Of a DNA stretch of 64,000 nucleotides, positions 16,599 to 45,774 are shown in pieces. The stretch's first letter is position 1; each line of letters begins with the position of its first letter. The notes below the pieces were generated by a model. The model had not been told where the DNA came from, searched no databases, and saw only the letters and a list, made by a program, of their open reading frames with translations. The translations under genes were made by a program, and so were the position numbers. The stretch comes from Deltaproteobacteria bacterium RIFOXYA12_FULL_58_15 (GTDB lineage: Bacteria; Myxococcota; XYA12-FULL-58-9). The DNA is taken from the NCBI GenBank assembly GCA_001798605.1, contig MGST01000042.1, forward strand, positions 1 through 64,000, in the 5' to 3' direction.

Positions 16599-16964
16599 AT
16601 GAGTTCCGACAGGGTTCTACTCATTGACGATGAAGTCGATTTTGTCGAAGCACTGGCTGAACGTCTGAGAACGCGAGGCCTCGAGGTTGATGTGGCAACC
16701 AACGGGGAAGACGGGATCGCGAAATCAAAGTCGGCTTCTTATAGCGCGGTGGTATTGGACTTTTCGATGCCCGGCATGAACGGTATCGAAACTCTCAGAG
16801 CACTCAGGGAGTACAACAGCAGCATTCGGGTGCTGCTGCTTACTGGGCAGGCGACGGTGAAGGCAGCGATTGCGGCCACCCGACTCGGTGCCGTCGATAT
16901 CCTCGAAAAGCCGATAGACATCGCGACGCTTCTGGAAAAAATTGGCGAAGCACGGGCCAGGTAG
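16599..16964 (+). CDS. Single-domain response regulator
   Basis: A 121-residue CheY-like receiver with no output domain: acidic pocket VLLIDDE, phospho-acceptor Asp in VVLDFSMPGMNG (~residue 54), Thr in LLTGQAT, and Lys in ILEKPID. The ATG at 16599 follows GGAGGATG. It stands 11 bases before the probable carbonic anhydrase gene, so the two are likely cotranscribed. Its sequence resembles the regulator at 27778 closely (shared DFVE, MPGM-GIETLR and EKP-DI features), so the two are probably paralogues and may be phosphorylated by the same kinase. Confidence 0.9.
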   Translation: MSSDRVLLIDDEVDFVEALAERLRTRGLEVDVATNGEDGIAKSKSASYSAVVLDFSMPGMNGIETLRALREYNSSIRVLLLTGQATVKAAIAATRLGAVDILEKPIDIATLLEKIGEARAR

Positions 16965-18280: not shown

Positions 18281-21200
18281 CTATTCTTCGTCTGTCTCTT
18301 TGTTGATCCGTACAACCCCGACGAGGGGACAAGTCTCGTTGGTGTCAGCGTGGGAGACTTTGTGGATTGCCTGAATCGCCTTGGCTTGGGTCGGGAAGAA
18401 CGCGCTCGTGGAAATAATATCACTTCTCCCATTTTGTCTTAGGACCTCGAGCTCCTCGTCTTTGAGGCCGCTAAAGACGAACGTGTAGCCATCATGCTGC
18501 AACTGTTCAACCAGCAGTGAGAGCTCCTCGGCGGCGATGGGATCCAATCTGACCAAAGTATGCGCCGCGAAAAGAACATGCCTTGCTGAAGGTTGTTTGC
18601 CGAGCGCGCTGCGCAGCTCATGCTCGAAAAACCGAATGGTCCCATAGTCGAGTGGGCCGTCGAATCTCAAGGCAACAATCCGGGTGCATAGCGCCAGATT
18701 GTGCCTTCGCGCGTCTCTCAATGATCCATCCGGATGAAGCGCAAGTTGGACCATGCGCGGCAGGATACCGCGCAGAGGGCATTCCTCTTCGCTCGCGTGG
18801 GTATGAGCCTCATGAAACAGTGAAGCAAGGGCAGAGGCGGCTGATGGGTAGACATCGTTGATGCCGATTGTGTCGATCACGCCATGGCGACCCAGAGACG
18901 CGAAAACGCGGTCGGTGAAGCCGGCCAAGACGACCTTATACTCCGCATCTCGCACCGCCTGCACCAAGGCCACGAGATTCTCGCGTTCGGAAGGGCCCAA
19001 TTGGTGAATGGTGTTGGCAAGAAAGACGACGCTCTCGACCTCGGGTCGAGTTTTGGCCCATCGAATGAACTCGGACTGAATCGCTTTGCGACTGAACAGA
19101 ACAAGTGGCCCCTCCAAACGCAGCACGCCGATCTTTTCGCAGGTCTCCAGACGGTGGTGTTCTACCTCCCGCAATGTTCCTGTGTGGTGCCAGGACAACT
19201 CTGTCACGTGGGGTGCGACCGCTCGCAAGGGGCAATCCCCCTCGGATGACCCTGTGTGAGCGGCGGAATAGATGGAGGCAATTGCGGTGAGCTGGGTTGG
19301 ATAGATGTGGTCGATCCCGATGACATCCAAGAGGCTATTGCGTTTGAGAGCGTCGACAACGTCCTCCTTGAGACCGCTGAAAGAAACAGCAAACCCGTCG
19401 GCCTTGAGTTTTCGGACCAACTCGATCAACTTCTCAGCGCCCAACTCGTCGACGTCATTGATTCCGTGACCCACGAAGACGATGTGCCGCACGGTCGGCC
19501 GATCAGCGAAACGGTTCAGGATCTCCTGTGCCAAAAAGCCCGTGTTGGCAAAATTTAGGGGCGCATCAAAACGCAGGGCCGCAATATGACGGCACGTTTG
19601 GAGATGGTGGCGTTCGACGCTGCGCAGCGAGCCGTCTTCGTGCAAGGAGAGCTCCACCACGGGGGGCATGGCCTGTCGGAAGGGACAGCCGTCTTCCGAA
19701 GTGCCTTGGTGCGCCGACGGGTAGATCGCTGCAATGGCCTGCGCCCGGGTGCCGTAGAAGTGCTCCTCGCCGATTTCGTCGTAAAGGTGGGAGCGGCGGA
19801 GCACATCGAGAACGTGTTCGGACATTCCGGAGAAGGACACACCGTAGCCGGCTCCGCGCAGATTCTCGACGAGGTGTCGGAGCGTCTCCTCGCCAGACGC
19901 ATCCACTTCGGTGATGCCGTTGCCCGCAATGAGCAGGTGCTTGAGCTCGGGCAGCTCAGCGACACGATTGAGCAGTTCGGTCTCCAGGTAGTTCGCGCTG
20001 GCGAAATACAAAGGGCCATCAAAACCCACCACCGACAGGTGGCGGCAGGTGGCTAGCTTGTGCCGTTGTGCATTCCGCATGGTGCCGTCACGGTGAGGGG
20101 CCAACACCACCACATGCGGTCGGGTGCTACGGTAGAGGTAGGCCCCTAGAGAAAGAGCCACGCCGATGAAAATCCCCCGCTCGAGGTGCGGCGCAAACAC
20201 GAGAGTGCCGACGAAGGTAACGACAGAGACGATTCCATCCACACGGCTGGTCCGCCATGCGTGGACGAAACCTGAAACATTGAGCAGACCAAAAACTGCC
20301 ATCATGATGATTGACGCCAGCACGGCCTGGGGTAGGTAATAGAGGGTCTTGGCAAACAAGAGCAGCACAACCATGACGATGCCGCTTGAGAACACGTTGG
20401 ACAGTCCCGTCTTGGCACCAGCCTGAAGATTGACGGCAGACCGGGAAAACGAACCCGACACGGCGTAACTCTGAGTCATGCAACCGAGGATGTTGGCGAG
20501 GCCCTGACCGATGAGCTCCTGGTTAGCGTCCAGTTTCTGCCGTGTTCGGGCTGCCATTGCCTTGGCAATGGAGATCGCCTCCATGAACCCTAGCAATGAG
20601 ATGATGAGTGCTGCCACAAACAACTTTGACATCACGTTCCAGTTGAAGTCTGGCAGGCTCAAGCTCGGAAGGCCCGCTGGAATGTTTGCGATGACCGCAC
20701 CACCGCCGGTGAGTGTTAGCGCCGATGTGTCCAAAGCCGAATTGCCTATCTTGAGTCGCCATGGTCCACCCGTTGAAGCCATGTTGTTTGGTTGTTCGCC
20801 ACGGACGAAGAAGTCTTTGCTCTCGTTGTCGCCCTTAACAAAGAGTTGTTCCCTAAGCTCGGCACGATGCACGGAGATCTCCACTTTGAGCGCAGCGATA
20901 TGACGATCAAACAGGCCGGCCATGTCGTGCAAAGCACCCACGTCACGCAGTGTGGGGTGCGAGGGGGCTGTGTCGGTGGGCGGTGCCAAGAAAAGGTTGG
21001 GATCGCGCCCCTCGTGGCAGCGAAGACACATGGCCTGCGGTTGGGAATTCAGCTCAGTCGCTTCTTTTTGGCTCTTGGATCGAGCGATCTCCAGAGCCGT
21101 TTTTGACTCCACAGCCGCGTTGAATGACTGCACGAGCTCCAGGGTGTGCGGGGATTGAATATCATTGATAGGGACGACCTCGTTGCGTTCAAAATCCAAT

Positions 21201-21865
21201 CCCCAGGAGAGCAAGGTCGTTATCACCACAGCCACCAGAACATTGGGAAGACGTGGGTTGAGCCGCCGCAATCCAATCATGGTGGCGAAAGACAGTGCCG
21301 CCATGCCAACGGTGGGCCAATGGGAATAGTCGACGGCCGCGTCGATCACTCGGATGACGGTTTCGTAGTGGTGCGGAGCATTGTCGACGTAAACACCGAA
21401 GATCTTCGAGAGCTGAGACGTTGCAATGATGAGTGCTGCGGCGTTGGTGAATCCGTTTGTCACTGGATGCGAAAGGAAGTTGACAATGACGCCCAGTCTC
21501 AACAGGCCCAAGGTGAACTGAAACGCACCGACCAAGAATGCCAGCAGCAACGCATAGGCGATGAATTCTTTGCTGCCGGCAGTGGCAAGCGGTTCCAAGG
21601 CCGCCGCGGTCATCAAGGAGACCACCGCCACGGGGCCCGTGGCCAATTGTCGGCTAGAGCCGAACAGGCTGGCTATCATCGGCGGCAACAACGCCGCGTA
21701 AAGACCGTAGTATGGGGGCAAGCCAGCCAACTGGGCGTAGGCCATGGATTGCGGTATGAGCACCAGGGCCACTGTTAAACCGGCGAGAAAATCGATTCGC
21801 AACGTTGTGCGGTGGTAACCCTCGAACCAACTCAAGAAAGGAAAAACTCGTTTAATGAACGACAT
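18281..21865 (-). CDS. SulP-family anion transporter with heme-c loop motif and four STAS repeats
   Basis: The 1194-residue protein has a SulP/SLC26 membrane domain (residues ~20-580): the DFLAGLTVALVLIPQSMAYA signature in TM1, FLSHPVTNGFTN, and FMEAISIAKAMA in TM8. Between TM7 and TM8 (about 225-410) a large insert, predicted periplasmic, carries a CxxCH heme-c motif (Cys280-His284). The C-terminus holds four STAS-like repeats of about 150 residues (~583-725, 733-875, 883-1025, 1034-1178), each opening with a conserved PHV..L..H.DG-R...H-L-TC header. SulP proteins usually have one STAS domain. Substrate could be sulfate, bicarbonate or another anion; the convergent LCIB-like gene favours bicarbonate. 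Confidence 0.85.
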   Translation of the reverse strand: MSFIKRVFPFLSWFEGYHRTTLRIDFLAGLTVALVLIPQSMAYAQLAGLPPYYGLYAALLPPMIASLFGSSRQLATGPVAVVSLMTAAALEPLATAGSKEFIAYALLLAFLVGAFQFTLGLLRLGVIVNFLSHPVTNGFTNAAALIIATSQLSKIFGVYVDNAPHHYETVIRVIDAAVDYSHWPTVGMAALSFATMIGLRRLNPRLPNVLVAVVITTLLSWGLDFERNEVVPINDIQSPHTLELVQSFNAAVESKTALEIARSKSQKEATELNSQPQAMCLRCHEGRDPNLFLAPPTDTAPSHPTLRDVGALHDMAGLFDRHIAALKVEISVHRAELREQLFVKGDNESKDFFVRGEQPNNMASTGGPWRLKIGNSALDTSALTLTGGGAVIANIPAGLPSLSLPDFNWNVMSKLFVAALIISLLGFMEAISIAKAMAARTRQKLDANQELIGQGLANILGCMTQSYAVSGSFSRSAVNLQAGAKTGLSNVFSSGIVMVVLLLFAKTLYYLPQAVLASIIMMAVFGLLNVSGFVHAWRTSRVDGIVSVVTFVGTLVFAPHLERGIFIGVALSLGAYLYRSTRPHVVVLAPHRDGTMRNAQRHKLATCRHLSVVGFDGPLYFASANYLETELLNRVAELPELKHLLIAGNGITEVDASGEETLRHLVENLRGAGYGVSFSGMSEHVLDVLRRSHLYDEIGEEHFYGTRAQAIAAIYPSAHQGTSEDGCPFRQAMPPVVELSLHEDGSLRSVERHHLQTCRHIAALRFDAPLNFANTGFLAQEILNRFADRPTVRHIVFVGHGINDVDELGAEKLIELVRKLKADGFAVSFSGLKEDVVDALKRNSLLDVIGIDHIYPTQLTAIASIYSAAHTGSSEGDCPLRAVAPHVTELSWHHTGTLREVEHHRLETCEKIGVLRLEGPLVLFSRKAIQSEFIRWAKTRPEVESVVFLANTIHQLGPSERENLVALVQAVRDAEYKVVLAGFTDRVFASLGRHGVIDTIGINDVYPSAASALASLFHEAHTHASEEECPLRGILPRMVQLALHPDGSLRDARRHNLALCTRIVALRFDGPLDYGTIRFFEHELRSALGKQPSARHVLFAAHTLVRLDPIAAEELSLLVEQLQHDGYTFVFSGLKDEELEVLRQNGRSDIISTSAFFPTQAKAIQAIHKVSHADTNETCPLVGVVRINKETDEE
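18332..20119 (-). repeat. Four-fold STAS domain duplication inside the SulP gene
   Basis: Four successive units of roughly 450 bases encode STAS-like domains whose headers and cores align: a short beta pair ending in a Cys (LATC, LQTC, LETC, LALC), a FDGPL-type strand, a helix, an IDxxG/VDxxG-type turn and a final helix followed by a Cys-Pro pair. Divergence between units shows an old duplication, not a recent slip. Confidence 0.85.
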
Positions 21866-21914: not shown

Positions 21915-22613
21915 TTAGCGTGGATCCGTCACGAAACCGGCGTCGATCTGTTCTTGGACCAGCTCGCGCGCGACTTCCCGGGGGTGTTCAGGCTCGCGGT
22001 CGCGAACGATGGTCTCGCCGTCACGAGTGATGATCTCGATCCGCAACAGCTCACCGTTTGCCTCGATCGACCAACGTCGGCCATCGGGGTGGGTGAGGCT
22101 GGCGGAGAAGATCTTGGTCATCGGCGAAATGAGCTCGGTCACTCGCCACTCACTGTCGACCCAACCAAAATTGCCGTGGAGTTTGCCAGCGGAAAAGATG
22201 GGGGGCGCGTGAGACGCACCACCTTCGTACGTCAAATCGTGAAAGGCGATGCTGTTGGTATTGGCAAGGGCTGCGGTGGCGGTGCCGGCTGCAGAGTTCG
22301 CCCTGGCCATGCTGTTGGCATTGGTCGCGGCATCGACATCGGTGACGGCTTCGACATCGGTGACGGCTTCGACATCGACATTTGGATTGTGGCTGATGGT
22401 CCCCACCGCCCAATATTTGCGCCCGCGACTTGGGCGAATCACGACGCGGATCCATTGGCCGTTGCGCATGCTCTCCCTGTCGGTGAAGTAGGGGCGCTTC
22501 GGTGAGCGTGGGTTTGAGTTCGGGTACTTCTCATTGTGGGAACGGCTGTACTCGAGGTCTACCGCTGCGCTGAGAATGCCGGCGGGCATGTGTCTGTATA
22601 AACTGCTGGACAT
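21915..22613 (-). CDS. Hypothetical protein
   Basis: This 232-residue protein is not recognised. Residues ~1-75 and ~125-232 look like ordered soluble sequence (a beta segment WIRVVIRPSRG and later EWRVTELISP, ending with a helix VARELVQEQID), separated by a low-complexity Ala/Thr/Asn/Val linker made partly of short in-frame repeats. No signal peptide is obvious. It lies 49 bases upstream of the SulP gene on the same strand, so it may be the first gene of that transcript. ATG 22613 has no clear ribosome binding site; an internal Met near residue 48 is possible. Confidence 0.5.
   Translation of the reverse strand: MSSSLYRHMPAGILSAAVDLEYSRSHNEKYPNSNPRSPKRPYFTDRESMRNGQWIRVVIRPSRGRKYWAVGTISHNPNVDVEAVTDVEAVTDVDAATNANSMARANSAAGTATAALANTNSIAFHDLTYEGGASHAPPIFSAGKLHGNFGWVDSEWRVTELISPMTKIFSASLTHPDGRRWSIEANGELLRIEIITRDGETIVRDREPEHPREVARELVQEQIDAGFVTDPR
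22335..22379 (-). repeat. 18-bp in-frame tandem repeat
   Basis: The unit GACATCGGTGACGGCTTC (plus strand) occurs twice exactly, followed by a half unit. It encodes the repeated EAVTDV linker of the hypothetical protein. Because 18 is a multiple of three, copy-number changes would keep the frame. Confidence 0.85.
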
Positions 22614-22724: not shown

Positions 22725-24173
22725 TTAGCTCCGTTCGGTTGTGGGGGCTGATGACGGCAGTGAGCTGCGGGGCTTTTGGCCGATGGTGTTCCAATTGACC
22801 CTGCGGGTCAGAAACATCACCAAGGCAAGCAGGGCGAACAGGGCCCAGGACCCTGCAAGCAGTGCGAGCGTCTCTTCGCGGAGGATGACGTAGAGCAGAC
22901 CGTAGGTTGCGCCGAGTCCCAGGCCGCATAACGCGGCGCGACTTTCCTTGACCAACATGGTTCGGGCGTAGGCGAAGATGAGCACAACGACGGCACTCGC
23001 GGCGATGAGATAGGAGAGCCCAAAGGCCAGGTGTTCGGATAGAGACAACAGGAGTAGATAGAAGACCACCAAAGCGCAGCCGACGAAGAGGTATTGGATT
23101 GGGTGTATCGAAAGACGCGCCACCACCTCGAACAAAAAGAAAGTGACGAAGGTGATGACGATGATGAACAGGGCGTATTTTACCCCCCGAGTCACCTGGT
23201 GATAATGGCTGACGGCGTCGATGAAGCGAACGGTGATGGCCGGGGACCGAGAGCTAGTGTCTGCGAGGGAGTCACCGATCTGCGATGTCATCATCCCCGA
23301 CGTCGTCGAGTCGAGGTGCCAAGTTGCGGCAAAACCGGAGTCATCGACGGTGCGAGAGGTCGGTAATCGAGCGCCATTGAAACTCGGGTGTGGCCAGTCT
23401 GATTTCAATACCACCGCGACACTTTCGCCGAACGGAGTGAGGTCCAGTGTGTCAGAGCCGAAGGCTTCGATAGTGGCTGCGAGTGTGACGGTCCCGCCGC
23501 GTCGAATCGCAGGAGCGTGCAACACCGGGCCAGGGATCCCGTGCTCATTGAAAGCCTTGCGGAGCGGCTGATTGAGGCCGTTGACATCGATGTGCCCGGC
23601 CACTGATCCATCGGATTTGGCACCCAACAGGAATACCCATGAAGCGTTGTTCCAGTCGAGGCTGGAAGGGGCGGTATCGATTCGGTTTGTGTCCTGGGAT
23701 GGGGCGGTATCGATTCGGTTTGTGTCTTGGGATGGGGCGGCATCGGTTCGGTTTGTGTCCTGGGATGGGGCACCGACGCGGTTTGACTCTTGGGAGGGGG
23801 CGCGCTCAGGTGCCACCTTCACGGTGCCGCGGATGAGCATGGTGCTGCGGTAGGTGGGGAGACGGAAGATATTGCGATATCGTTCGACCACGGGAATGTC
23901 ACCTTGGATCGATAACGTGTCCAAAGTGATGAAGTGATGCTCATGGGTGCCGATTGTTGGAACCACAAGAATTGGGCCGCGAAGGGAAATCGGCGGTCCC
24001 CATTGCTGCTGGAGCTCCTCGGAGACCTCTAGAACGCGTTGGCTGCGCTCCGCGACGAGGTCCTCAATCGAGGAAAGTGGAATAAGAAGGACGAAGGTCA
24101 GGATCGTGGTGCCCATGATCTTGATGAGGGTCGGGTTCTTCACGAGCAGGCGGAGTGGGTTCTGGTTTTCCAT
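22725..24173 (-). CDS. creD: CreD-like inner membrane protein
   Basis: The 482-residue product has the CreD layout: one N-terminal membrane helix (about 18-38), a large periplasmic domain with the RxxxxxVLxV and GPILVVP motifs after the helix, and a block of five or six membrane helices at the C-terminus (VKYALFIIVITFVTFFLFEV, IQYLFVGCALVVFYLLLLSLS and so on). CreD proteins are linked to envelope stress and antibiotic response in enterobacteria. The periplasmic domain is interrupted by four tandem 11-residue repeats (APSQDTNR type) that are not part of the usual family sequence. No creBC-type genes adjoin it, though a response regulator gene follows on the same strand side at 24325. Confidence 0.85.
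   Translation of the reverse strand: MENQNPLRLLVKNPTLIKIMGTTILTFVLLIPLSSIEDLVAERSQRVLEVSEELQQQWGPPISLRGPILVVPTIGTHEHHFITLDTLSIQGDIPVVERYRNIFRLPTYRSTMLIRGTVKVAPERAPSQESNRVGAPSQDTNRTDAAPSQDTNRIDTAPSQDTNRIDTAPSSLDWNNASWVFLLGAKSDGSVAGHIDVNGLNQPLRKAFNEHGIPGPVLHAPAIRRGGTVTLAATIEAFGSDTLDLTPFGESVAVVLKSDWPHPSFNGARLPTSRTVDDSGFAATWHLDSTTSGMMTSQIGDSLADTSSRSPAITVRFIDAVSHYHQVTRGVKYALFIIVITFVTFFLFEVVARLSIHPIQYLFVGCALVVFYLLLLSLSEHLAFGLSYLIAASAVVVLIFAYARTMLVKESRAALCGLGLGATYGLLYVILREETLALLAGSWALFALLALVMFLTRRVNWNTIGQKPRSSLPSSAPTTERS
23668..23799 (-). repeat. 33-bp in-frame tandem repeat in creD
   Basis: About four units of 33 bases, each starting GGGGCGGTATCGATTCGG or a variant on the plus strand, encode 11-residue units of APSQDTNRIDT type. 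The middle two are nearly identical and the outer ones have diverged, as expected of a growing and decaying minisatellite. Confidence 0.85.
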
Positions 24174-24324: not shown

Positions 24325-24753
24325 CTATTCTGGGTTATTCTGGGTTAACAATCGGTCAAGGGGGGGCGAAGGCCGGCGGCTTCTTTCTTCCTGGGCGCGA
24401 GCTACAGCCCGCAGCATGACGGCTGCGAGATCGGTCAGCTCAACGGGCTTGTTGAGGTACTCAAAGGCTCCGAGCTCACGCGCCAGTTCTTCATCATTTT
24501 CGTTGCCGTGGCCACTGACGACGATGACCTGTACGTGCGGTCGCAATTTTCTTACCCGGCGCAGAACCTCGTGGCCACTTATGCCGGGCATGCGCAAGTC
24601 GAGCACCATGATGTCGTAATCCCCCGCCCGAATGCGCGACAAGGCTTGCTCACCGTCGAAGGCCACGTCGGACCGCATGTCGCGCATCTCGAGGCGTTCG
24701 GCGAGGGTCGTGATGTAATCGCGCTCGTCGTCGACCAACAGAATCTTGGACAC
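24325..24753 (-). CDS. Single-domain response regulator
   Basis: A 142-residue receiver: acidic pocket ILLVDDE, phospho-Asp in IMVLDLRMPG (~residue 53), Ser/Thr switch in VIVVSGHGNEND, and Lys in YLNKPVEL. After the receiver comes a short Arg-rich tail, with no DNA-binding domain. The start is GTG 24753: GGAGG lies eight bases before it and the receiver begins there; the longer frame adds an unrelated N-terminus. It diverges from the sensor kinase gene at 24981 over 227 bases and probably shares its regulatory region. Confidence 0.85.
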   Translation of the reverse strand: MSKILLVDDERDYITTLAERLEMRDMRSDVAFDGEQALSRIRAGDYDIMVLDLRMPGISGHEVLRRVRKLRPHVQVIVVSGHGNENDEELARELGAFEYLNKPVELTDLAAVMLRAVARAQEERSRRPSPPLDRLLTQNNPE

Positions 24754-24980
24754 GTGGTCCTCCGCAAGCCCAAGCAGGTCGTAGGCAAACCCACAGGCTT
24801 TCAAGGGTCGAGGATAGCGAACCGCGGTCTCGATGTATATCCCAGTGAACTCCTGAACTCCTGGCGCTGCGAAATGGTCCGCGAGAGCCACCGCCCGCAA
24901 ACACCGCAAACAAACAGCCCTTGTGTGTCGATCGCGACTTTCTTATGCTCCGGCTGATGGCGAATTTCTACTAGTCCTGC

Positions 24981-26711
24981 ATGGCAATGAGGGTTGGCGA
25001 TGTGATGAATCTGAGAGTTGACTCACCTCAAGCCGCCGTTGAGAGCTCCACCCTCATACCCCATGGCTATTACCGCAGGTTGCGGTGGATTTCCGTCAGC
25101 GCTGTGGCGTCGGTGTCGGTGATTCCACTCATTATTATGACGGTGATCAACTATCACCAGTACGAGGAGGCGTTTCGCATCGAAGCGACCCGACCGGTGC
25201 ATCGTCTCACCGTGAGCGCCAAGCTCTCGATGGAATCCTATCTGTCAGAGAGGCTGTCCGCGTTGCAACTCGTCAATCGCGCGGCCTCCATAGAGGAGAT
25301 GCGCGACTCTGCAGAACTGGCCAAATGGCTCACCCACATCAAACGGTCGTTTGGTGGTTTTGTGGATCTGGGCCTCATTGATGCTGCGGGCAAACAGGTG
25401 TCCTACGCCGGTCCGCACGAGCTCATAGGACGCAGTTATCAGGATCATGATTGGTTCCATGAGGTTTCCCAACGTGGTGTATACGTGAGCGATGTGTTTC
25501 TCGGTTATCGAGACTCGCCGCATTTTGTCATCGCCGTCATTCATGACACCAGTGACGGCACCCTCTACGTCCTGCGTGCGACCATCGACACGAACGCCAT
25601 CGTCCGCCGTTTGGCCTCGTTGGCGGGGCCGGAGCTCAATGATGCTTTCTTGATCAACCGTGAGGGCATCCTGCAAACGCCCTCGCGCTTGTTTGGTGAG
25701 GTGTTGGGACAGTTGCCCTTCCAAGTTGCTGAGAATCCGGAGGAACCCGGTATTTTGGAGACCAAAGATCCTGACGGCAAACCAGTATTGGTCGGTTATG
25801 CCGCGGTATCCAACACCCCGTTCGAGGTGGCGATGATCAATCGCTCTGGCGTCTACCACGGCGATTGGTTGTCGTTGCGGCGTGAGTTGGTGTCCTTTCT
25901 CATTGTTAGCGTGCTGTTGATCTTGGGAATGGTTTTTTGGGGTGCGACGTACATGATCAACCGGGCTCGTAACGCAGACAGCCGCCGCGCCACCCTGTAC
26001 CACAAGATGGAGTATACCAATAAGATGGCGGCGATTGGGCGCCTTGCTGCTGGCGTCGCCCACGAGATCAACAATCCACTGTCGATCATTCATCAGAATG
26101 CCGGACTCGTCCAAGATCTTCTTTCGGTGTCAGGCAAAGAACCGCCCAAAGAAAAACTGTTGTCGCTCATTGAGTCGGTGTTGTCCTCCGTTGACCGATG
26201 CAGCGCCATCACGCACAGGTTGTTGGGCTTCGCTCGGCACATGGATGTGGAGACCGAGGAGATTGATCTCGAGTTATTGATTCGCGGGGTCTTGATGTTT
26301 TTGGAGAAAGAAGCAAGTTATCGCAATCTCCGAGTCGACGTCACGGTCGACGAAAAAGTGCCGACCATCCAGAGTGACCGCGGCCAGCTGCAGCAAGTGT
26401 TTCTCAATATCATCAACAACGCATTCGCCGCGGTGGAGGAGGGGGGATCCATTGCCATCTCTGTTCGCAAACTCAACGACCAGCAGGTGGCGGTGGCGAT
26501 CACCGACAACGGTATGGGCATCCCTGAGCAGAATCTTGCGCATATCTTTGAGCCGTTCTTCACTACCAAAAAGGGGGCGGGTACCGGTCTAGGACTGTCC
26601 ATTACGTACGGGATCATTCAGAAACTAGGCGGTAAGATTGAAGTAGACAGTCATGAGGGCAAGGGTACTTGCTTCACCGTGACCTTGCCGTTGGAGAGGA
26701 AACAATCGTGA
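24981..26711 (+). CDS. Membrane sensor histidine kinase with Cache domain
   Basis: The 576-residue protein has an N-terminal cytoplasmic tail, a membrane helix (~34-58), a periplasmic double-Cache sensing domain (~60-310, with YQDHDWFHEVSQRGVYVSDVF-like features typical of Cache folds), a second membrane helix (~318-340), a HisKA dimerisation domain with the phospho-His in AAGVAHEINNPLS (~365), and an HATPase_c domain with NIINNAFAAVEEGG, DNGMGIP and GTGLGLS boxes. It is therefore a complete, active-looking kinase that probably senses a small molecule in the periplasm. It leads an operon of kinase, regulator, degenerate kinase and regulator. Confidence 0.9.
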   Translation: MAMRVGDVMNLRVDSPQAAVESSTLIPHGYYRRLRWISVSAVASVSVIPLIIMTVINYHQYEEAFRIEATRPVHRLTVSAKLSMESYLSERLSALQLVNRAASIEEMRDSAELAKWLTHIKRSFGGFVDLGLIDAAGKQVSYAGPHELIGRSYQDHDWFHEVSQRGVYVSDVFLGYRDSPHFVIAVIHDTSDGTLYVLRATIDTNAIVRRLASLAGPELNDAFLINREGILQTPSRLFGEVLGQLPFQVAENPEEPGILETKDPDGKPVLVGYAAVSNTPFEVAMINRSGVYHGDWLSLRRELVSFLIVSVLLILGMVFWGATYMINRARNADSRRATLYHKMEYTNKMAAIGRLAAGVAHEINNPLSIIHQNAGLVQDLLSVSGKEPPKEKLLSLIESVLSSVDRCSAITHRLLGFARHMDVETEEIDLELLIRGVLMFLEKEASYRNLRVDVTVDEKVPTIQSDRGQLQQVFLNIINNAFAAVEEGGSIAISVRKLNDQQVAVAITDNGMGIPEQNLAHIFEPFFTTKKGAGTGLGLSITYGIIQKLGGKIEVDSHEGKGTCFTVTLPLERKQS

Positions 26712-26721
26712 GGAGGGCGGC

Positions 26722-27108
26722 ATGCGAGTTCTGATGGTCGATGACGAGGTGGAGCTCGTCAATGCGCTGGTCGAGAGGTTGGGGATTCGCGATATCGACG
26801 CCGTGGGGGTTACCAACGGGCACGACGCCCTCGAGAAGATCTACGAAGAGCCGTTCGATGTGGTTGTCTGTGATGTGAAGATGCCCGGACTCGGCGGCCT
26901 CGATGTCATCAAAAAGGTCAAAGAGAAATGGCCCGACCTCGCAGTCATTCTCCTCACCGGCCATGGATCCACCCGCGATGCGGAAGAAGGAGTGCGGGCT
27001 GGTGCCTTCCGTTATCTGATGAAGCCAATCAACATTGAGACGCTCGTCGAGGTGCTGCGAGAAGCCACGGAAGCGGGAAACGGGCGTGGTGATGGTCAGA
27101 TCCCCTGA
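26722..27108 (+). CDS. Single-domain response regulator
   Basis: A 128-residue receiver with MVDDE, phospho-Asp in VVCDVKMPGLGGLDV (~residue 50), LLTGHGSTRDAEEG and YLMKPIN. It starts 10 bases after the sensor kinase, with GAGGAGGG before ATG 26722, so kinase and regulator are cotranscribed. The C-terminus (~118-128) is a short tail. Its last 17 bases overlap the next gene. The HGSTRDAEEG element resembles the NtrC-type receiver surface, but no sigma-54 domain follows. Confidence 0.9.
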   Translation: MRVLMVDDEVELVNALVERLGIRDIDAVGVTNGHDALEKIYEEPFDVVVCDVKMPGLGGLDVIKKVKEKWPDLAVILLTGHGSTRDAEEGVRAGAFRYLMKPINIETLVEVLREATEAGNGRGDGQIP

Positions 27109-27781
27109 TCGCGATTTGGCGGCGCGCCAGAATGGTTTCGCCTTCTTTGGTGCGATCACTGCGAGCCTCTCGCATGAGCTGAACAATGTTCTGGCGACCA
27201 TCAAGGAGTTGTCTGGCCTCTTGGAGGACTTGGTCCACGCCGTCAAACCAGAGCGGCCCCTCAACGGGGAGCGCGTGATCTCATCACTGGAAAAGATGAA
27301 TGTCCAAGTGGAGAGGGGTCGACGTTACGTGAAGCAACTCAATCGCTTTGCACATAGCGCCGACGAACCAGAGGCCGCGATCGATCTCTGCGATACCGTT
27401 GCCGAGATCGTGGCCCTGAGTCAGAGGTTGGCAAAGCTCAATCGGGTCGATCTCATCACAGAGTTGCCCGAGCAGATGGTCAAGATTGACGGGAGCTCTT
27501 TCGAGGCCCAACATGTTCTCTATCGTTGTCTCAAGGCTGTGATGACCGCGGCGGGTCAAGGGGAGAAGGTTGTTGTTCGCTTGTCTGACGATGGACCGCG
27601 GATAGTCGTAGAAGTGGCAGGTCCCGATCGGGCGATTGATGTGTCGCCGGAATGGTTGCATGTGACCGAACGGTTGGCTGAGGAAGTTGGTGCTGTTTTT
27701 GTTTCCGAAGGGGGAGACTCGGGGAAGATGCTGCTCCACTGGGAACCGGGTCGCGCTGTTATTGGAGAGGTGAGGTTATGA
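27092..27781 (+). CDS. HisKA-containing protein with degenerate ATPase domain
   Basis: The 229-residue product has a HisKA-like helix pair with SLSHELNNVLATI (~residues 22-34), so a phosphorylatable His is present. The following region (~110-225) has the length of an HATPase_c domain but lacks the asparagine of the N box (LYRCLKAVMTAAG takes its place), has no DxGxG motif (AGPDR instead) and no G2 box. It may therefore be a phosphotransfer or scaffolding partner and not an autokinase. ATG 27092 is used; two GTG codons just before it are alternatives. It lies between two regulators and overlaps both. Confidence 0.75.
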   Translation: MVRSPDRDLAARQNGFAFFGAITASLSHELNNVLATIKELSGLLEDLVHAVKPERPLNGERVISSLEKMNVQVERGRRYVKQLNRFAHSADEPEAAIDLCDTVAEIVALSQRLAKLNRVDLITELPEQMVKIDGSSFEAQHVLYRCLKAVMTAAGQGEKVVVRLSDDGPRIVVEVAGPDRAIDVSPEWLHVTERLAEEVGAVFVSEGGDSGKMLLHWEPGRAVIGEVRL

Positions 27782-28209
27782 GTCACGAAAAGGTTCTACT
27801 GGTCGATGACGAAAAGGATTTTGTCGAAGTTCTCGCGATGCGGCTGGAGACCCGAGAATTCGACGTCGACATGGTGCTAAGCGGCGAGGAAGCTTTGGTC
27901 AAGGCGGGGCAGAGAGGTTACGATGCCATCTTGCTCGACTTGGCGATGCCGGGCATGGATGGAATCGAGACGCTGCGGCGCCTACGCGAAATCAATCCCG
28001 ACTCGCAGGTGATCGTGCTGACAGGGCGTGCCACGGTCAAGCAGGCAACGGAGATCATGAAGCTTGGGGCCCTTGACCTCTTGGAGAAGCCCGTCGACAT
28101 TGAAGTCTTGGTGGAGGGCATTTCGCAAGCGGCCACCAACAAGTTCAGACTTTCGGAGCAACGGATCGCCGAGCGGACCGAGGAGATCATCAAGCGTCAC
28201 GGTTGGTGA
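27778..28209 (+). CDS. Single-domain response regulator
   Basis: A 143-residue receiver with VLLVDDEKDFVE, phospho-Asp in ILLDLAMPGMDGIETL (~residue 54), VIVLTGRATVKQATEI and LLEKPVDI, then a short helical tail. It overlaps the degenerate kinase gene by ATGA and is the last gene of the four-gene operon. It is a close paralogue of the regulator at 16599, which hints that the LCIB/SulP block and this kinase operon belong to one signalling circuit. Confidence 0.9.
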   Translation: MSHEKVLLVDDEKDFVEVLAMRLETREFDVDMVLSGEEALVKAGQRGYDAILLDLAMPGMDGIETLRRLREINPDSQVIVLTGRATVKQATEIMKLGALDLLEKPVDIEVLVEGISQAATNKFRLSEQRIAERTEEIIKRHGW

Positions 28210-36534: not shown

Positions 36535-38574
36535 CTGAGCCTCCTCGGAAATCTTGCCGATTTGGGTCTGGGAGACATCTTTCAGATAGTCTCGCTGAGC
36601 CGTCGCTCCGGCACTCTGCAATTGACGACCCCGTCGCGGTCGGGCGAGATTGTATTCGATCAAGGCCGCGTGGTCGCCGGTTACATGACCGGAGAGACCA
36701 ACTCGGTTGGCGACAGTCTGTTGGAGCTGGGAGCAGTCAAACCAACAACGTACCAAGAGATGTTGGCTGCCCAGGCCGATGGTCTTGGGGGGCTTGAGCT
36801 GTTGCGGCGATTTGAAGCAGAGGCTTCGGGCATCTCTGATGGCCTCGATGAATTGCTACGTCGTACCATCTACCAGATGTTCGATTGGGATGAGGGGACC
36901 TTTTCCTTTGTCCTCGAAGAGAACCCGGACCCATGGCGTGGCTTCTCTCTCGCTGCCAATCGGGTTGTGGTGGTCAAGGGACTGAATCCGCAATACCTCG
37001 CCATCGAGGGAGCGCGGCTGCGTGATGAACGCACCAAAGATGACGCGCTAGAGAGTTTTCTCGCCCGTGACAACAAACCACCCCCTCAACTGAGTCGTGA
37101 TGCTGAGGTGAAATCATTTGCCGCGCAGCTTCGTGAGTCGCCAGCGGTTCAGGATACAATCCCGAACACCGATGTGGCATCAGCGCCCATTGGCGCAGAT
37201 GCGGCCGAGCAAGCGGTCGAGCCAGCAGTGCAACCAACTGTCTTGGGATCACCTGGGGAACAGACAGTCGCGATCCCGATTGCGCAGAGTGCCGTTTGGC
37301 CCGCCACGATGGAGACGCAGTCAATCGCTGGGAGTTCCGCGAGCGCACCAGGCTGGTGTCTGCTGGCGGTGGATGACGATCCACAGGTCACTCACCACAT
37401 TGGGGATTCCTTTGGCAGTCGTTTTTCCGAGGTCATACTCGCCAACACCGTGGCCGAGGCATTCGGGGAGATGGATGGCCGCGACAATCTCATCGTCGTC
37501 AGTGATCTGATCATCGCCCGGTCCGATGGTGCCGGAATTCTGGGCGGTATCGAGATTCTCGAGAAGATCCGTGAGCGGTCCGCCGACCTGCCGGTCATTC
37601 TATTCACCGACTACGAAAACGCCGAGGCACAGAAGAAGGCGAGCAACCTCGGTGTCGCGGGTTTCCTGATGAAACCACGCAAAGCCCAGATTCAGGCGGT
37701 GAAACAAAAGGGCGGCTTGAGTCCGGCAATGCAAGAGTTCCTCGAGGGTCTCGGTACGGCCCTCGACCCATATCTGAGCGAAGCGGGTTCAGCTTCCGTC
37801 GTGGAACCTGCCACGTCCCCGGTATTGGTTCCTGTACCTGGGGTGGAGCCCGCAACACCCGAGCCCATTTTGTCATCCTCAGTCGTGCTTGCGCCTTCTG
37901 CCGCAGCGATTGTCGATCTTGGTCCTGAGGGGCAAGAACACAAGCAGCCAATGGCAGAATCTCTTCCGTACGATCTTCGCCGGGAGATTGCGGGGTATAT
38001 ACAGGACGTTGATGTTCCGGGCTGGGACGATCTGCCGCCTGCCGTGGTATCCTCTGAACAGGTTAGCACGCTTCGGTCGATGCTCTCTGAGCTCGTCGAT
38101 CCGGCCAATCGGGAAACTGTCACCCTGCTGGTGTTGCGGTTTGCTAGCGTCGTTTTCGATCGCGCTGCGTTGTTCTTGGTAACGCGTCGATTCTATGTTG
38201 GCCTTGGGGGTTTCTCATCGGAGGAATCCTCCGACCAATTCGTTGTACGCGTACGAAAGATCCAGGTGCCCGTGAGCACGGAATCTGTATTTTCGAGGGT
38301 TGCCCGTTTCCGGTCGCCATATCGCGGTCCACTGGCAAATTTTGGCGGCAATGAACGACTGGTCGGAGGATTGGGAGGCAGTTGGCCTTCAGGGCAAGTG
38401 GTCGCTATCCCATTGATCTCGAACGACCGAGTGGCGGCAATCCTCTACGGTGACAATCCTGGGGGCAAAGACATTGGGCCGACCGATACGTTGGAGATCT
38501 TTCTCCAGCAAGCTGGTTTGGCTATGGATCGAGTTCTACTCGAGCGAAAGCTCGAAGAAGCACGACGTCGTTAG
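36535..38574 (+). CDS. PATAN (DUF4388)-receiver-GAF regulatory protein
   Basis: The 679-residue protein begins SLLGNLADLGLGDIFQIVS, the classic start of DUF4388/PATAN domains, placing the initiation codon at CTG 36535, which has AAGGAG seven bases upstream; only TTG 36562 remains as an alternative since TGA 36520 closes the frame. Domains: PATAN (1-140), a Pro/Ala-rich linker, a receiver (~275-400; AVDDDPQ, phospho-Asp in VVSDLIIA, Lys in FLMKPRK), another linker, and a GAF-like domain (~515-670). PATAN-receiver proteins regulate gliding or pili-linked behaviour in related bacteria. It heads the chemosensory cluster. Confidence 0.85.
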   Translation: MSLLGNLADLGLGDIFQIVSLSRRSGTLQLTTPSRSGEIVFDQGRVVAGYMTGETNSVGDSLLELGAVKPTTYQEMLAAQADGLGGLELLRRFEAEASGISDGLDELLRRTIYQMFDWDEGTFSFVLEENPDPWRGFSLAANRVVVVKGLNPQYLAIEGARLRDERTKDDALESFLARDNKPPPQLSRDAEVKSFAAQLRESPAVQDTIPNTDVASAPIGADAAEQAVEPAVQPTVLGSPGEQTVAIPIAQSAVWPATMETQSIAGSSASAPGWCLLAVDDDPQVTHHIGDSFGSRFSEVILANTVAEAFGEMDGRDNLIVVSDLIIARSDGAGILGGIEILEKIRERSADLPVILFTDYENAEAQKKASNLGVAGFLMKPRKAQIQAVKQKGGLSPAMQEFLEGLGTALDPYLSEAGSASVVEPATSPVLVPVPGVEPATPEPILSSSVVLAPSAAAIVDLGPEGQEHKQPMAESLPYDLRREIAGYIQDVDVPGWDDLPPAVVSSEQVSTLRSMLSELVDPANRETVTLLVLRFASVVFDRAALFLVTRRFYVGLGGFSSEESSDQFVVRVRKIQVPVSTESVFSRVARFRSPYRGPLANFGGNERLVGGLGGSWPSGQVVAIPLISNDRVAAILYGDNPGGKDIGPTDTLEIFLQQAGLAMDRVLLERKLEEARRR

Positions 38575-38607
38575 GATGTTTCCGAGTGATTGTGAGCGAG
38601 GGCGCAG

Positions 38608-38982
38608 ATGCCTAGATTGATGGTCGTTGAAGACTCCGCAGCCATGCGGGGTATGATTGCCTCGATTCTCGGGCAAATCGCTGATTCGGAAGTCGTCGAG
38701 GTCGCGTCGGGTTTTGAAGCGCTCAAATTGTTACCGCGCGACGTTGTTGACCTTATTGTCATGGACATCAACATGCCAGATATCAATGGCCTAGAGCTCT
38801 TGTCATTTGTACGCAAGTTGCCGGCCTATGCGAATACGCCGGTTTTGATCGTCACCACGGAGAGGGGCGAGGAAGACCGCAAACGTGGCATGGCTTTGGG
38901 GGCGAACGGCTATCTGGTGAAACCTTTCGACCCCGATGAGTTGTTGGAAACTGTCATCAACCTTTTGAGCGAGAGGTCATGA
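38608..38982 (+). CDS. CheY-like response regulator
   Basis: A 124-residue receiver: MVVEDSAAMR, phospho-Asp in LIVMDINMPDINGLELL (~residue 53), VLIVTTERGEEDRKRG and GYLVKPFD. The overall sequence is typical of the CheY proteins paired with CheA. It overlaps cheA by four bases (ATGA) and is probably its direct phosphorylation target. Confidence 0.92.
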   Translation: MPRLMVVEDSAAMRGMIASILGQIADSEVVEVASGFEALKLLPRDVVDLIVMDINMPDINGLELLSFVRKLPAYANTPVLIVTTERGEEDRKRGMALGANGYLVKPFDPDELLETVINLLSERS

Positions 38983-41048
38983 GTTCGTCCGTATTCACGC
39001 CAGAGCTCATTGCCGAGGCGCAAGAAATTGTCGACGCCCTAAACAGCGATTTGATCGTCGCAGAGAGTGAGGCGAGGGCGGGCATCGTTGATCCCGATCG
39101 CATCAATGGCCTATTTCGCAGCGCCCATTCCCTCAAGGGCATCTCAGGAATGTTCGGGCTCAGTGGGGTGTCACGTCTCGCTCACGACCTCGAGAGCCTG
39201 CTCGACGGAATGCGATTGGGCAAGGTGCAGCTCGATGCCAACGCATTGGACGTGTTGTTCAGCTGTGTCGAGCGGTTTGGTGCACTTATCGCAGCGGCCG
39301 CAGAGGGCGACGAAAACCTCGAGGTCGGGGTGGACGAGTTGGTTGTGCGCCTCAAGAATGTGACCAGCGGTGACGTCGGAGTCGGCAAAACAGAGTTGAC
39401 GGCGTTGGTCGACTTGAGCGCAGACGTGGTCAGTGTACTCACTGAGTACGAGGAACATCGGCTTCGGGAGAACCTGAAGAAAGACCGCAATCTGTTTATG
39501 CTGCGCAGCGCCTTCGATCTCTCCAACTTTGACGTTGGGCTTGCGGAGATCGACGCAGCCGTCAAACCGCTTGGCGAGGTGATCACCAAACTCCCGTCAT
39601 CGAAGCCCGGAGAGTCTGGCACCATCGCATTTGATATCATTGTCGGCTCGGATTCTGATGCGGAGTCGTTGGCTTCGGCCATCTCCGACGACCGCGTCGA
39701 GGTCATCCCCATCGGCAAACGAGGGGCTACGCAGCGGGCAGCGGTTGCGGCGCCAGTTGCAGCCACGCCATTGGCTCCGTCTACAGAGGAATCTGCAGCG
39801 CTACTGACGTCACCGGAGGCTGATGAGGGTGCGACGATTCGAAGTGTGTCGCGGACGGTGCGGGTAGATATTCGGCGTTTGGACCGTCTGATGAACCTGG
39901 TTGGCGAGCTCGGATTGACCCGAATGGCCTTCGAGAAAATCGGCGAAGGCTTTCGTCGGCTGCAGGGCTTCACCGGTTTGGCAGCAGAACTGCACAAAGA
40001 AGGTCGAAATTTCGAGCGTCGCCTCACCGAGTTGCAGGCGGGCATCATGGAAGTTCGCATGGTGCCGCTCGCCAATCTCTTCGAACGAATGGTGCGTATT
40101 GGCCGCAAGGTAAGTAGAGAGCTCAATCGAGAGGTGCGAATCGAGGTCAGCGGTGAAGGGACAGAGCTCGATAAGCTCATCGTCGAGGACCTCGCCGACC
40201 CCTTGATGCACCTGGTGCGGAATGCGATTGACCACGGCATCGAAGCTCCAGAAGATCGCGAAGCAAATGGCAAGCCCCGAGAGGGCATGGTCCGATTGAC
40301 CGCCACTGCTCGCGGTAATCACGTTCTTGTTGTGGTTTCGGACGATGGCGGCGGGATCGACGTCGCCAGGGCTCTGGAGTCGGCAGTGCAGAAAGGGCTT
40401 GTCACACCGGAACGTGCCGCGGAACTGACTCGCCGTGAGGTTTTTAACCTTCTCCTGCTGCCTGGTTTTTCCACTCGTAGCGAAGTCTCGGAGTACAGTG
40501 GTCGCGGTGTGGGGATGGATGTCGTCAAGACCAAGATCTCCCAGTTGTCCGGAATCGTCGACATAGACTCAGAGCCGGGTCGAGGCACGACGGTGACAAT
40601 TACCCTTCCTATCACTCTTGCCATCATTCCTGCGTTGATTGTGATCGTGGCCGGAGAGACCTACGCGATACCTCTGAACAATGTGCAGGAGACATTGGCA
40701 CTGGAGCCCAGTCTCGTGAGGACCATCGAGAACCGTGAGGTCATTTCGGTGCGGGGTACAACAGTGCCGCTCGTCGACCTCAGAGGCATTTTTCACATTG
40801 ACGGAAAGGGACGACCCGATCTCCCCTATGGCGTCATTGCCGGTGTGGGCCAGAACGCAACCGCTCTCGTGGTCGACGAGCTCGTCGGGCAGCAGGATAT
40901 TGTTATCAAATCTCTCGGCCGTCGGTTGCGAAAAGTTCCAGGTATTGCCGGTGCCGCGGAGCTTGGTAATCAGAAGACGATTCTTGTGATCGACATGGTT
41001 GAGCTAATCGACGAAATGGCACGTGGTGGTGGTGATGGGCGTGCGTGA
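38979..41048 (+). CDS. cheA: Chemotaxis histidine kinase CheA
   Basis: The 689-residue protein has all main CheA domains: an HPt domain with FRSAHSLKGISGMFG (phospho-His50), a linker domain without the classic CheY-binding P2 form (~150-280), a dimerisation domain (VRVDIRRLDRLMNLVGEL, ~290), a catalytic domain with HLVRNAIDHGIE, SDDGGGID and GRGVGMDVVK boxes, and a CheW-like C-terminus (~560-689). It phosphorylates the CheY and CheB proteins of this cluster in response to a receptor array. Overlaps the CheY-like gene and the first cheW. Confidence 0.97.
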   Translation: MSSSVFTPELIAEAQEIVDALNSDLIVAESEARAGIVDPDRINGLFRSAHSLKGISGMFGLSGVSRLAHDLESLLDGMRLGKVQLDANALDVLFSCVERFGALIAAAAEGDENLEVGVDELVVRLKNVTSGDVGVGKTELTALVDLSADVVSVLTEYEEHRLRENLKKDRNLFMLRSAFDLSNFDVGLAEIDAAVKPLGEVITKLPSSKPGESGTIAFDIIVGSDSDAESLASAISDDRVEVIPIGKRGATQRAAVAAPVAATPLAPSTEESAALLTSPEADEGATIRSVSRTVRVDIRRLDRLMNLVGELGLTRMAFEKIGEGFRRLQGFTGLAAELHKEGRNFERRLTELQAGIMEVRMVPLANLFERMVRIGRKVSRELNREVRIEVSGEGTELDKLIVEDLADPLMHLVRNAIDHGIEAPEDREANGKPREGMVRLTATARGNHVLVVVSDDGGGIDVARALESAVQKGLVTPERAAELTRREVFNLLLLPGFSTRSEVSEYSGRGVGMDVVKTKISQLSGIVDIDSEPGRGTTVTITLPITLAIIPALIVIVAGETYAIPLNNVQETLALEPSLVRTIENREVISVRGTTVPLVDLRGIFHIDGKGRPDLPYGVIAGVGQNATALVVDELVGQQDIVIKSLGRRLRKVPGIAGAAELGNQKTILVIDMVELIDEMARGGGDGRA

Positions 41049-41655
41049 CCAAAAGAAGATGAGTGGCAGCGGACGCGCTGTTGCATCCGACGCAGTGTCG
41101 GATGCGGGGCGTGCAAACGGCGATCCACTCAAAGAGTTCTTTGTTTCCGACAACGAAGCTGATCTAAACCAGGCGCTTCACGTGGGGGAAGCCTATGTGG
41201 GCACAGCCTTGCACGCAGACGCCATGCTCGAACTGTTGGCTTTTTGGGCCGGCGACGAGGAATACGGGGTTGAAATCGTCCAGATTCAAGAGATTATCAA
41301 GGTGCCGGTGATCACGCCAGTGCCGCGCGCACCCGCATGCGTGCTTGGTATCATCTCTCTGCGTGGGACAATCGTACCGGTTGCCGACCTGCGGGCGATT
41401 CTGGGCATGTCGCCTTTGCCCGCAGCACGAGCCAGCCGAATATTGGTGTTACGAGGCGATGGCGAACCGGTTGGACTGCTCGTTGACCAAGTGAGTAGCG
41501 TGGTTCGATTGGAACGAGAAGCTGTTCAGCCGGTGCCACGTACCATGCAGCGACAGGCTGGTGACTTGTTGCAGGGGGTGGGACGTGATGAGGACAGAAT
41601 GTTGATTATTCTAGATCTCCCAACGGTGCTGATGGCAACGGAGTATGTGGGATGA
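41035..41655 (+). CDS. cheW: CheW-like coupling protein with N-terminal extension
   Basis: Residues ~60-206 form a CheW domain (ELLAFWAGDEEYGVEIVQIQ, VPRAPACVLGIISLRGTIVP, and VGLLVDQVSSVVRL). It couples CheA to receptors. The first ~60 residues are an unusual low-complexity extension. ATG 41035 overlaps the cheA end by 14 bases; ATG 41059, just after the cheA stop, is a reasonable alternative. The next cheW overlaps its end by four bases. Confidence 0.92.
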   Translation: MGVRDQKKMSGSGRAVASDAVSDAGRANGDPLKEFFVSDNEADLNQALHVGEAYVGTALHADAMLELLAFWAGDEEYGVEIVQIQEIIKVPVITPVPRAPACVLGIISLRGTIVPVADLRAILGMSPLPAARASRILVLRGDGEPVGLLVDQVSSVVRLEREAVQPVPRTMQRQAGDLLQGVGRDEDRMLIILDLPTVLMATEYVG

Positions 41656-42140
41656 ACCCCGCTAGAGACGACGAGATTGTTCAGTTGGCCGCGTTCTGCG
41701 TTGGGCCAGAAGAGTATGTCGTCGACATCATGCGAGTCCGCGAGATTATTCGCCCCATACCGATCACGCCTGTGCGCAAAGGGCCCAAGTATGTCGAGGG
41801 GGTTATCAGCCTGCGGGGGTCGGTGATTCCAATTGTCGATTTGCGCCGTCGTTTCGAGATTCCCATAACGGAGTCACCTCAACAACGAATCATGATCATG
41901 ACCGTTGCAGGACGTTCGCTTGGTTTGATGGTGGACTCGGTCACCGAGGTGGTGCGGGTGCCGCGCAGCTCCATTCGGGCGGCACCGGGTCTGCTGGAAG
42001 CCGAACGAGCTCCGTACTTTTTAGGGGTCTGCCATCATCGTGGAAGAACTCTGATTCTTTTGAATGTAAAAAACATCATCGTCTCAGAAGAAGTGATCGA
42101 CATCTCCTCAGAGACGGCAGTTCTGCGTGAGGGGTTGTGA
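41652..42140 (+). CDS. cheW: CheW-like coupling protein
   Basis: A 162-residue CheW: LAAFCVGPEEYVVDIMRVRE, VRKGPKYVEGVISLRGSVIP, then LGLMVDSVTEVVRVPRSSIR. It is of normal CheW length, in contrast to the extended copy upstream; the two differ clearly, so they may couple different receptors or bind CheA and another partner. Start ATG 41652 overlaps the upstream stop, and its stop overlaps the GTG of the next gene. Confidence 0.93.
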   Translation: MNPARDDEIVQLAAFCVGPEEYVVDIMRVREIIRPIPITPVRKGPKYVEGVISLRGSVIPIVDLRRRFEIPITESPQQRIMIMTVAGRSLGLMVDSVTEVVRVPRSSIRAAPGLLEAERAPYFLGVCHHRGRTLILLNVKNIIVSEEVIDISSETAVLREGL

Positions 42141-44917: not shown

Positions 44918-45774
44918 TCCTGGGGGCGGGCAGAGCGGTCAGTATGACCGATGAGGAGTTTCGTCTCATCCGGGATCTCATCTGCGATTTTTGTGGCATC
45001 TACTTCGAGGATTCTCTCAAGTTCTTGGTCGAGAGGCGGCTGCAGCCGCGTCTTCCGGTGTTTGGCTTTGTCAGTTTTCGAGACTACTACCGACTGATCA
45101 AATACGGTCGTGAATGTGAACGCGAGTTTGACGAGATCGTCGAACGGGTGACCACCAACGAGACATATTTTTTCCGTGAGGCGTATCAGCTGCGCGCGTT
45201 CACCGATGAAATTTTGCCGATGGTGGTGGCGCAGAGATCAGAGGGCCGGATTCGAGTTTGGTCGGCAGGTTGCTCTACGGGTGAGGAACCCTATTCTATC
45301 GCCATGTTGCTCGACAAATGTCCCATTGTTGCCGGGCGTCCCGTCGACGTTTTTGGCAATGACATTTCTCGAAAGGTGCTGCGAACTGCGCGAGCAGGCA
45401 TGTACACCCAGGCATCCTTTCGCAGCACGGACAATGCGTACATTAAAGAATACTTCCATCGTGACGGACGCACCTACCAACTGGATGAGCGTATCCGCAA
45501 TCGTGTCACATTTGGGCATCTCAACCTTATGGATGAGAATGCTTTGGCCCTGATCGGCAAAGTCGACGTCATCCTTTGCCGTAACGTCATCATCTATTTC
45601 AACCATGCCAGTCGTGCCAGGCTACTGGCTACTTTCTATCGCAAGCTTCGGCCCGGCGGTTTTCTCCTCCTCGGACACTCCGAGTCGCTGGTAAACGAGA
45701 CCAAAGACTTCGAACTCGCACCACTCACCAACGACATGGTTTACCGGAAACCGGGAGAGGGCTCCTTGCTATGA
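44914..45774 (+). CDS. cheR: Chemoreceptor methyltransferase CheR
   Basis: The 286-residue product has the helical CheR N-domain and a SAM-dependent methyltransferase domain: TTNETYFFRE, the SAM loop VWSAGCSTGEEPYSIAM, then NDISRKVLRTARAG and DVILCRNVIIYF, ending LGHSESL. It methylates glutamates of chemoreceptors. ATG 44914 overlaps the HEAT gene stop (ATGA) after AGGAGGG; ATG 44944 would fit the family start better but has no such site. Its stop overlaps cheB. Confidence 0.95.
   Translation: MILGAGRAVSMTDEEFRLIRDLICDFCGIYFEDSLKFLVERRLQPRLPVFGFVSFRDYYRLIKYGRECEREFDEIVERVTTNETYFFREAYQLRAFTDEILPMVVAQRSEGRIRVWSAGCSTGEEPYSIAMLLDKCPIVAGRPVDVFGNDISRKVLRTARAGMYTQASFRSTDNAYIKEYFHRDGRTYQLDERIRNRVTFGHLNLMDENALALIGKVDVILCRNVIIYFNHASRARLLATFYRKLRPGGFLLLGHSESLVNETKDFELAPLTNDMVYRKPGEGSLL

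Follow-up and report, generated by a model that had tools for sequence, protein, structure and literature searches.

The window, the 64,000-nucleotide stretch analysed here, carries on its minus strand, at positions 18281 to 21865, a gene (P0001) for a protein of 1194 aa that is, by its sequence, a member of the SulP/SLC26 family, for which anion transport is predicted. A SulP transporter had been named in an earlier reading of this DNA (the original prediction), and the assignment is confirmed by PDB matches, by the Pfam domain Sulfate_transp (6e-103) and by the NCBIfam sulP model, the curated cut-off of which (380) is exceeded with 523 bits. Scores lie below the NCBIfam equivalog cut-offs for BicA and DauA. 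Both the SLC26 fold and the cytoplasmic STAS are present in the product (Pfam, AlphaFold model), and the modelled transporter part (residues 3-592) resembles SLC26 structures, including those of SLC26Dg, BicA and prestin. TM1-TM7 comprise residues 19-222 (21200-21811, minus strand; AlphaFold model, Pfam and PDB matches) and TM8-TM14 residues 409-581 (20123-20641, minus strand; AlphaFold model). The rest of the protein, residues 590-1194 (18284-20098, minus strand), consists of four tandem STAS repeats of ~151 aa each, recognized by Pfam in four stretches and by alignment of the repeats. Each repeat has two regularly placed cysteines, one in a motif of the RHxLxxC type and the other in a Cys-Pro near the end.

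Between TM7 and TM8 the protein has an insertion (residues 223-388; 20702-21199, minus strand), at which its PDB sequence matches are interrupted. In the alignment, insert-less SulPs pass from the end of TM7 directly to a GG-VVG-IP linker before TM8, and in the window protein ~165 residues lie in between. The original prediction had put a 180-residue insertion at this place; the position holds, but the length is slightly shorter, ~165 residues (about 223 to 388). Since seven TM helices are found on each side of the insert and the N-terminus and STAS are cytoplasmic, the models place the insert in the periplasm, the side of cytochrome c maturation, as had been claimed. The charges of the short loops are consistent with this location.

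The shape of the insert has been modelled twice, within the whole transporter (residues 3-592) and on its own, and the two AlphaFold models are concordant on its layout: a strand, helix 1 (residues 239-274, 36 residues; 21044-21151, minus strand), a loop with the motif CxxCH, the long helix 2 (residues 306-339; 20849-20950, minus strand), and strands leading back to TM8. Together these elements form a two-helix hairpin on a small beta base. In the insert-only model the hairpin core is mostly above pLDDT 90, and the block averages of helices and base are mostly above 85, many of them above 95. At the tip of the hairpin, which carries CxxCH, pLDDT falls to about 50-70 in either model, and any geometry proposed for the heme site is for that reason a candidate only. 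A known cytochrome or sensor fold could not be assigned to the insert, as no significant match came from Pfam (cytochrome c and heme-c models included), from a PDB sequence search (no relative below E 0.6) or from a Foldseek search of the PDB (no match below E 0.001). Cytochrome and sensor Pfam models give weak echoes in other members, and none in the insert of the window. One such echo, of sCache_heme, has an E-value of 0.18 and is confined to one member; identity with sCache_heme (Tll0287-like) was rejected, the insert being modelled as a helical hairpin on a beta base.

The minus-strand translation has CLRCH at residues 280-284, exactly at positions 21014-21028, where the original prediction had placed a CxxCH. 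This putative heme-c attachment motif (C280, C283, H284) is at the hairpin tip. Across the 64-kb window, the listed non-overlapping ORFs contain no other CxxCH, and from the composition of the protein about 0.0006 such motifs would be expected within the insert by chance. A search of related genomes and GTDB genomes yielded 15 distinct SulPs whose insert contains CxxCH and 40 hairpin-bearing SulPs without it. The 15 come from several lineages and form a long-insert subgroup in which the motif occupies an identical aligned place. Their membrane cores are on average 66.7% identical in pairwise comparison, and their inserts (residues 230-345) 27.7%, with a minimum of 14%. Between N249 and W369, only C280, C283, H284, L312, H313 and G317 are identical in 15/15, and the two residues between the cysteines vary freely (LR, ER, SS, FR, SH, KS, AS, SR, GS, TS). 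Conservation in close homologues, which bears on the original prediction, is thus strict in the subgroup of 15, but the motif is missing from the 40 other hairpin-bearing SulPs.

H313 (codon at 20927-20929, minus strand) is part of an LHxMAG motif near the start of helix 2 and is the candidate distal ligand of the heme. The second histidine is present in 15/15 CxxCH members, 17 to 38 residues past CxxCH and near the start of helix 2. Among the aligned hairpin relatives without CxxCH, the same column has His in just two. These two SulPs (L101, L108) are possibly relics. Against an insert identity of only ~28% within the group of 15, the invariant C-C-H-H is conspicuous and probably marks a bis-His heme-c site: a proximal His within CxxCH and a second His kept in step with it are the pattern expected of such a site. 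Covalent attachment of heme to the CxxCH of the insert is, judged from this pattern, very probable. The original prediction left the consequence of the heme as a redox response, a gas response or a link to electron transfer. Two invariant His indicate a six-coordinate heme, so a gas-responsive role is less favoured, and the ligands as predicted would favour a redox role over simple gas binding.

Cytochrome c maturation genes, to which the original prediction had also pointed, are found in the genome of the window, where a system-I operon with a ccmA-like gene, ccmB, ccmC, ccmE and the start of ccmF reaches the edge of a contig (C12). None of the matches reaches its curated equivalog cut-off, and for the ATPase a different ABC model gives a slightly higher score than ccmA does; the identification of the operon therefore rests also on the gene order ccmA-B-C-E-F. 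PF01578 is present in 14/15 genomes with a CxxCH-SulP. In the remaining one (G033, 92% complete) neither PF01578 nor CcmH was detected, and this genome nonetheless encodes cytochrome c proteins, which makes an assembly gap the likely cause of the absence.

Readings of the motif without heme can be weighed against these results. That CxxCH is a chance or non-functional motif can be dismissed as virtually without likelihood, since 15 relatives keep it in a shared place at 28% insert identity, 40 hairpin relatives lack it and 0.0006 are expected in the insert; nothing was found that favours this reading. A structural zinc site at the hairpin tip, made of C280, C283, H313 and perhaps also H284, would account for the invariance of two Cys and two His, and a tip loop could permit the variable spacing (17 to 38) between CxxCH and the second His. 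It would not be expected, however, to hold invariant the His immediately after the second Cys, which is required for heme-c and is rare in zinc sites, and a CxxCH in the periplasm is what the Ccm system, encoded in this genome, acts upon. Zinc binding is on these grounds quite improbable. The periplasmic location of the CxxC would also suit a thiol-disulfide switch without heme, but two invariant His in step with CxxCH would then be left unexplained, and we give this explanation very little credence.

The 40 close relatives that have the hairpin insert and lack CxxCH rule out that every hairpin SulP carries heme. They are mostly about 711-754 aa long, and in those that were aligned the tip lacks ~30 residues. 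The tail lengths suggest one to four STAS copies in the CxxCH relatives and one in the heme-free relatives. In a tree built on the membrane domains, with the insert excluded, the CxxCH sequences make three groups around a heme-free hairpin clade, and three label changes are needed. The pattern would fit an ancestral heme that was later lost. However, a single CxxCH clade is not rejected (p-AU 0.24), and the heme form may therefore have been either gained or lost.

The transporter gene of the window is flanked by genes of two-component signaling. A receiver protein is encoded on one flank (16605-16964, plus strand). On the opposite flank are found another receiver (24325-24909, minus strand), a histidine kinase of dCache-HisKA-HATPase architecture (24981-26711, plus strand), and, at 26722-28209 on the plus strand, a receiver (26722-27108), a HisKA protein (27035-27781) and a further receiver (27778-28209). 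The genes on this opposite flank constitute a cluster that relatives have in common: a dCache histidine kinase and receivers are found beside the heme-SulP in the window, L080, L082, L084, L122, and partly in L081. The same cluster is present beside the heme-free hairpin SulPs of L058, L124 and L125, and is consequently not specific to the heme form; it belongs to hairpin SulPs generally. Most of these clusters (L058, L080, L082, L084, L122, L124, L125) combine the hairpin SulP with a cytidylate-kinase-like protein (named by eye), a dCache histidine kinase, a HisKA protein and receivers; the window itself has no cytidylate-kinase-like gene, and the set of L124 includes a beta-carbonic-anhydrase-like gene. 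Just upstream of the transporter, an ORF of 232 aa (21915-22613, minus strand) contains an Ala/Asp/Thr-rich repeat and has no Pfam match. Also upstream, a CreD homologue (22725-24173, minus strand) has a short in-frame repeat of the APSQDTNRIDT type. Farther away, at 36562-46820 (plus strand), an apparent chemosensory cluster was noted by eye, with receivers and CheA-, CheW-, CheR- and CheB-like genes.

A different neighbourhood is found in four genomes that make up one clade on the membrane-domain tree (L037, L039, L120 and L121). In L037, L039 and L120 the gene order is [NiFe]-hydrogenase small subunit, large subunit, cytochrome b, heme-SulP, hypF and hypD (from Pfam in the case of L037). 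In L121 the heme-SulP is followed by a broken-up hypF, hypD and other hyp genes, and a separate contig carries the hydrogenase large subunit. To our knowledge, no standard hya operon contains a SulP gene. The linkage is confined to a single clade and possibly reflects one event. That heme SulPs always go with hydrogenase is ruled out by the restriction to this clade of four genomes; the transporter gene of the window is outside any hydrogenase operon, and a search for the large subunit gave no match in 6/15 CxxCH-SulP genomes. In L120, an alpha-carbonic-anhydrase-like gene was seen by eye downstream of the heme-SulP.

How could a heme at this place serve a transporter? In SLC26 proteins TM1-4 and TM8-11 make up a moving core, and TM5-7 and TM12-14 a gate. 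On the outer side, TM7 of the gate is joined to TM8 of the core by the insert; transport could therefore plausibly be altered by a change in this link. We propose that C280 and C283 hold a heme covalently, with H284 as the proximal and H313 of helix 2 as the distal ligand. The heme would be at the outer tip of the helical hairpin, the beta base of which would be tied to TM7 and TM8, in a linker coupling gate and core as the two bodies slide past each other in transport. The heme would most likely exchange electrons with a periplasmic redox partner, its redox state would alter the hairpin or the pairing of the hairpin in the SulP dimer, and this change would tune anion uptake. In lineages like that of the window, the change in the hairpin might also be signaled to the histidine kinase and receivers encoded nearby. 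That the heme gates transport is a proposal, and the reading as a whole, a mono-heme c-type module in the TM7-TM8 linker for redox-gated transport, is one to which we lean by a small measure.

Two other uses of the heme have to be considered, and the gene neighbourhoods bear on both. The arm might be an electron-transfer element and not a switch, shuttling electrons between a partner and either periplasmic carriers or hydrogenase, or coupling electron flow directly to anion uptake. The position of the heme-SulP gene in hydrogenase operons, adjoining a cytochrome b gene, speaks for this role, as do the two invariant His, which are suitable ligands, and the exposed tip on which the models put the motif. 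We nevertheless think it unlikely, as no path onward through the transporter is visible from a single heme at the tip and most CxxCH members have no adjacent hydrogenase gene, the large subunit being without a match in the 6/15 genomes mentioned. Its strongest form, in which electrons flowing through the periplasmic heme, with hydrogenase as one possible source, would directly drive or license the SulP to take up anions, is distinctly improbable; we know of no precedent for a redox-coupled secondary transporter of that kind. The protein could, on the other hand, be a transceptor or a gas or redox sensor, the heme arm serving as input to the neighbouring dCache kinase and receivers and transport being secondary. 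The kinase and receiver cluster around the window gene and those of L080, L082, L084 and L122 agrees with this; the SulP protein DauA of E. coli is reported to act in signal transduction together with a partner transporter (PMC5703999), and periplasmic heme-c sensors bind NO (PMC12889525). But heme-free SulPs have the same kinase cluster, members in hydrogenase operons lack it within the flanks examined, and two invariant His make simple gas binding less likely. A primarily sensory role is accordingly rather unlikely in our estimate.

Compared with the known SulP/SLC26 proteins (BicA, SLC26Dg, DauA, Rv1739c, prestin), which have the 14-TM domain and a cytoplasmic STAS in common, the window protein differs by its four STAS copies and by a heme-c-type insert that separates TM7 from TM8. 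No solved structure in the PDB, those of SulP/SLC26 included, matches the insert by sequence or fold. In the open-access literature we found no description of a heme-c SulP, an absence that is not proof. A survey from 2018 describes a SulP group Ci of sulfate reducers, ~710 aa in length, with an insertion of ~90 residues that was read as an extra TM helix, and makes no mention of heme or cytochrome for this group (PMC5840216). By size and description, group Ci may correspond to the heme-free hairpin relatives; the insertion read there as a TM helix (PMC5840216) is modelled here as a soluble hairpin.

The closest precedent, by analogy, for adding CxxCH to an existing domain is sCache_heme, in which a CxxCH fragment has been added to a heme-free periplasmic Cache sensor domain (PMC12889525). 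The sCache_heme/DUF3365/Tll0287 proteins, GSU0582 and GSU0935 likewise have CxxCH on a pre-existing periplasmic domain and a single c-type heme (PMC12889525, PMC3460858). They differ from the heme-SulPs in that the Cache fold is found in receptors or stand-alone proteins, not in transporters, and in that Tll0287 is Cys/His ligated, in contrast to the two invariant His here. SLC26/SulP is among the most widespread families of anion transporters, and no member bearing a redox cofactor was found in the open-access literature. The conserved probable heme site on an external arm suggests that in some of its members anion transport can be coupled to the redox conditions beyond the inner membrane. 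If this is true, a covalent heme in the gate-core linker would exemplify redox control of transport in nature, and a periplasmic insert that may earlier have been taken for a TM helix would acquire a function.
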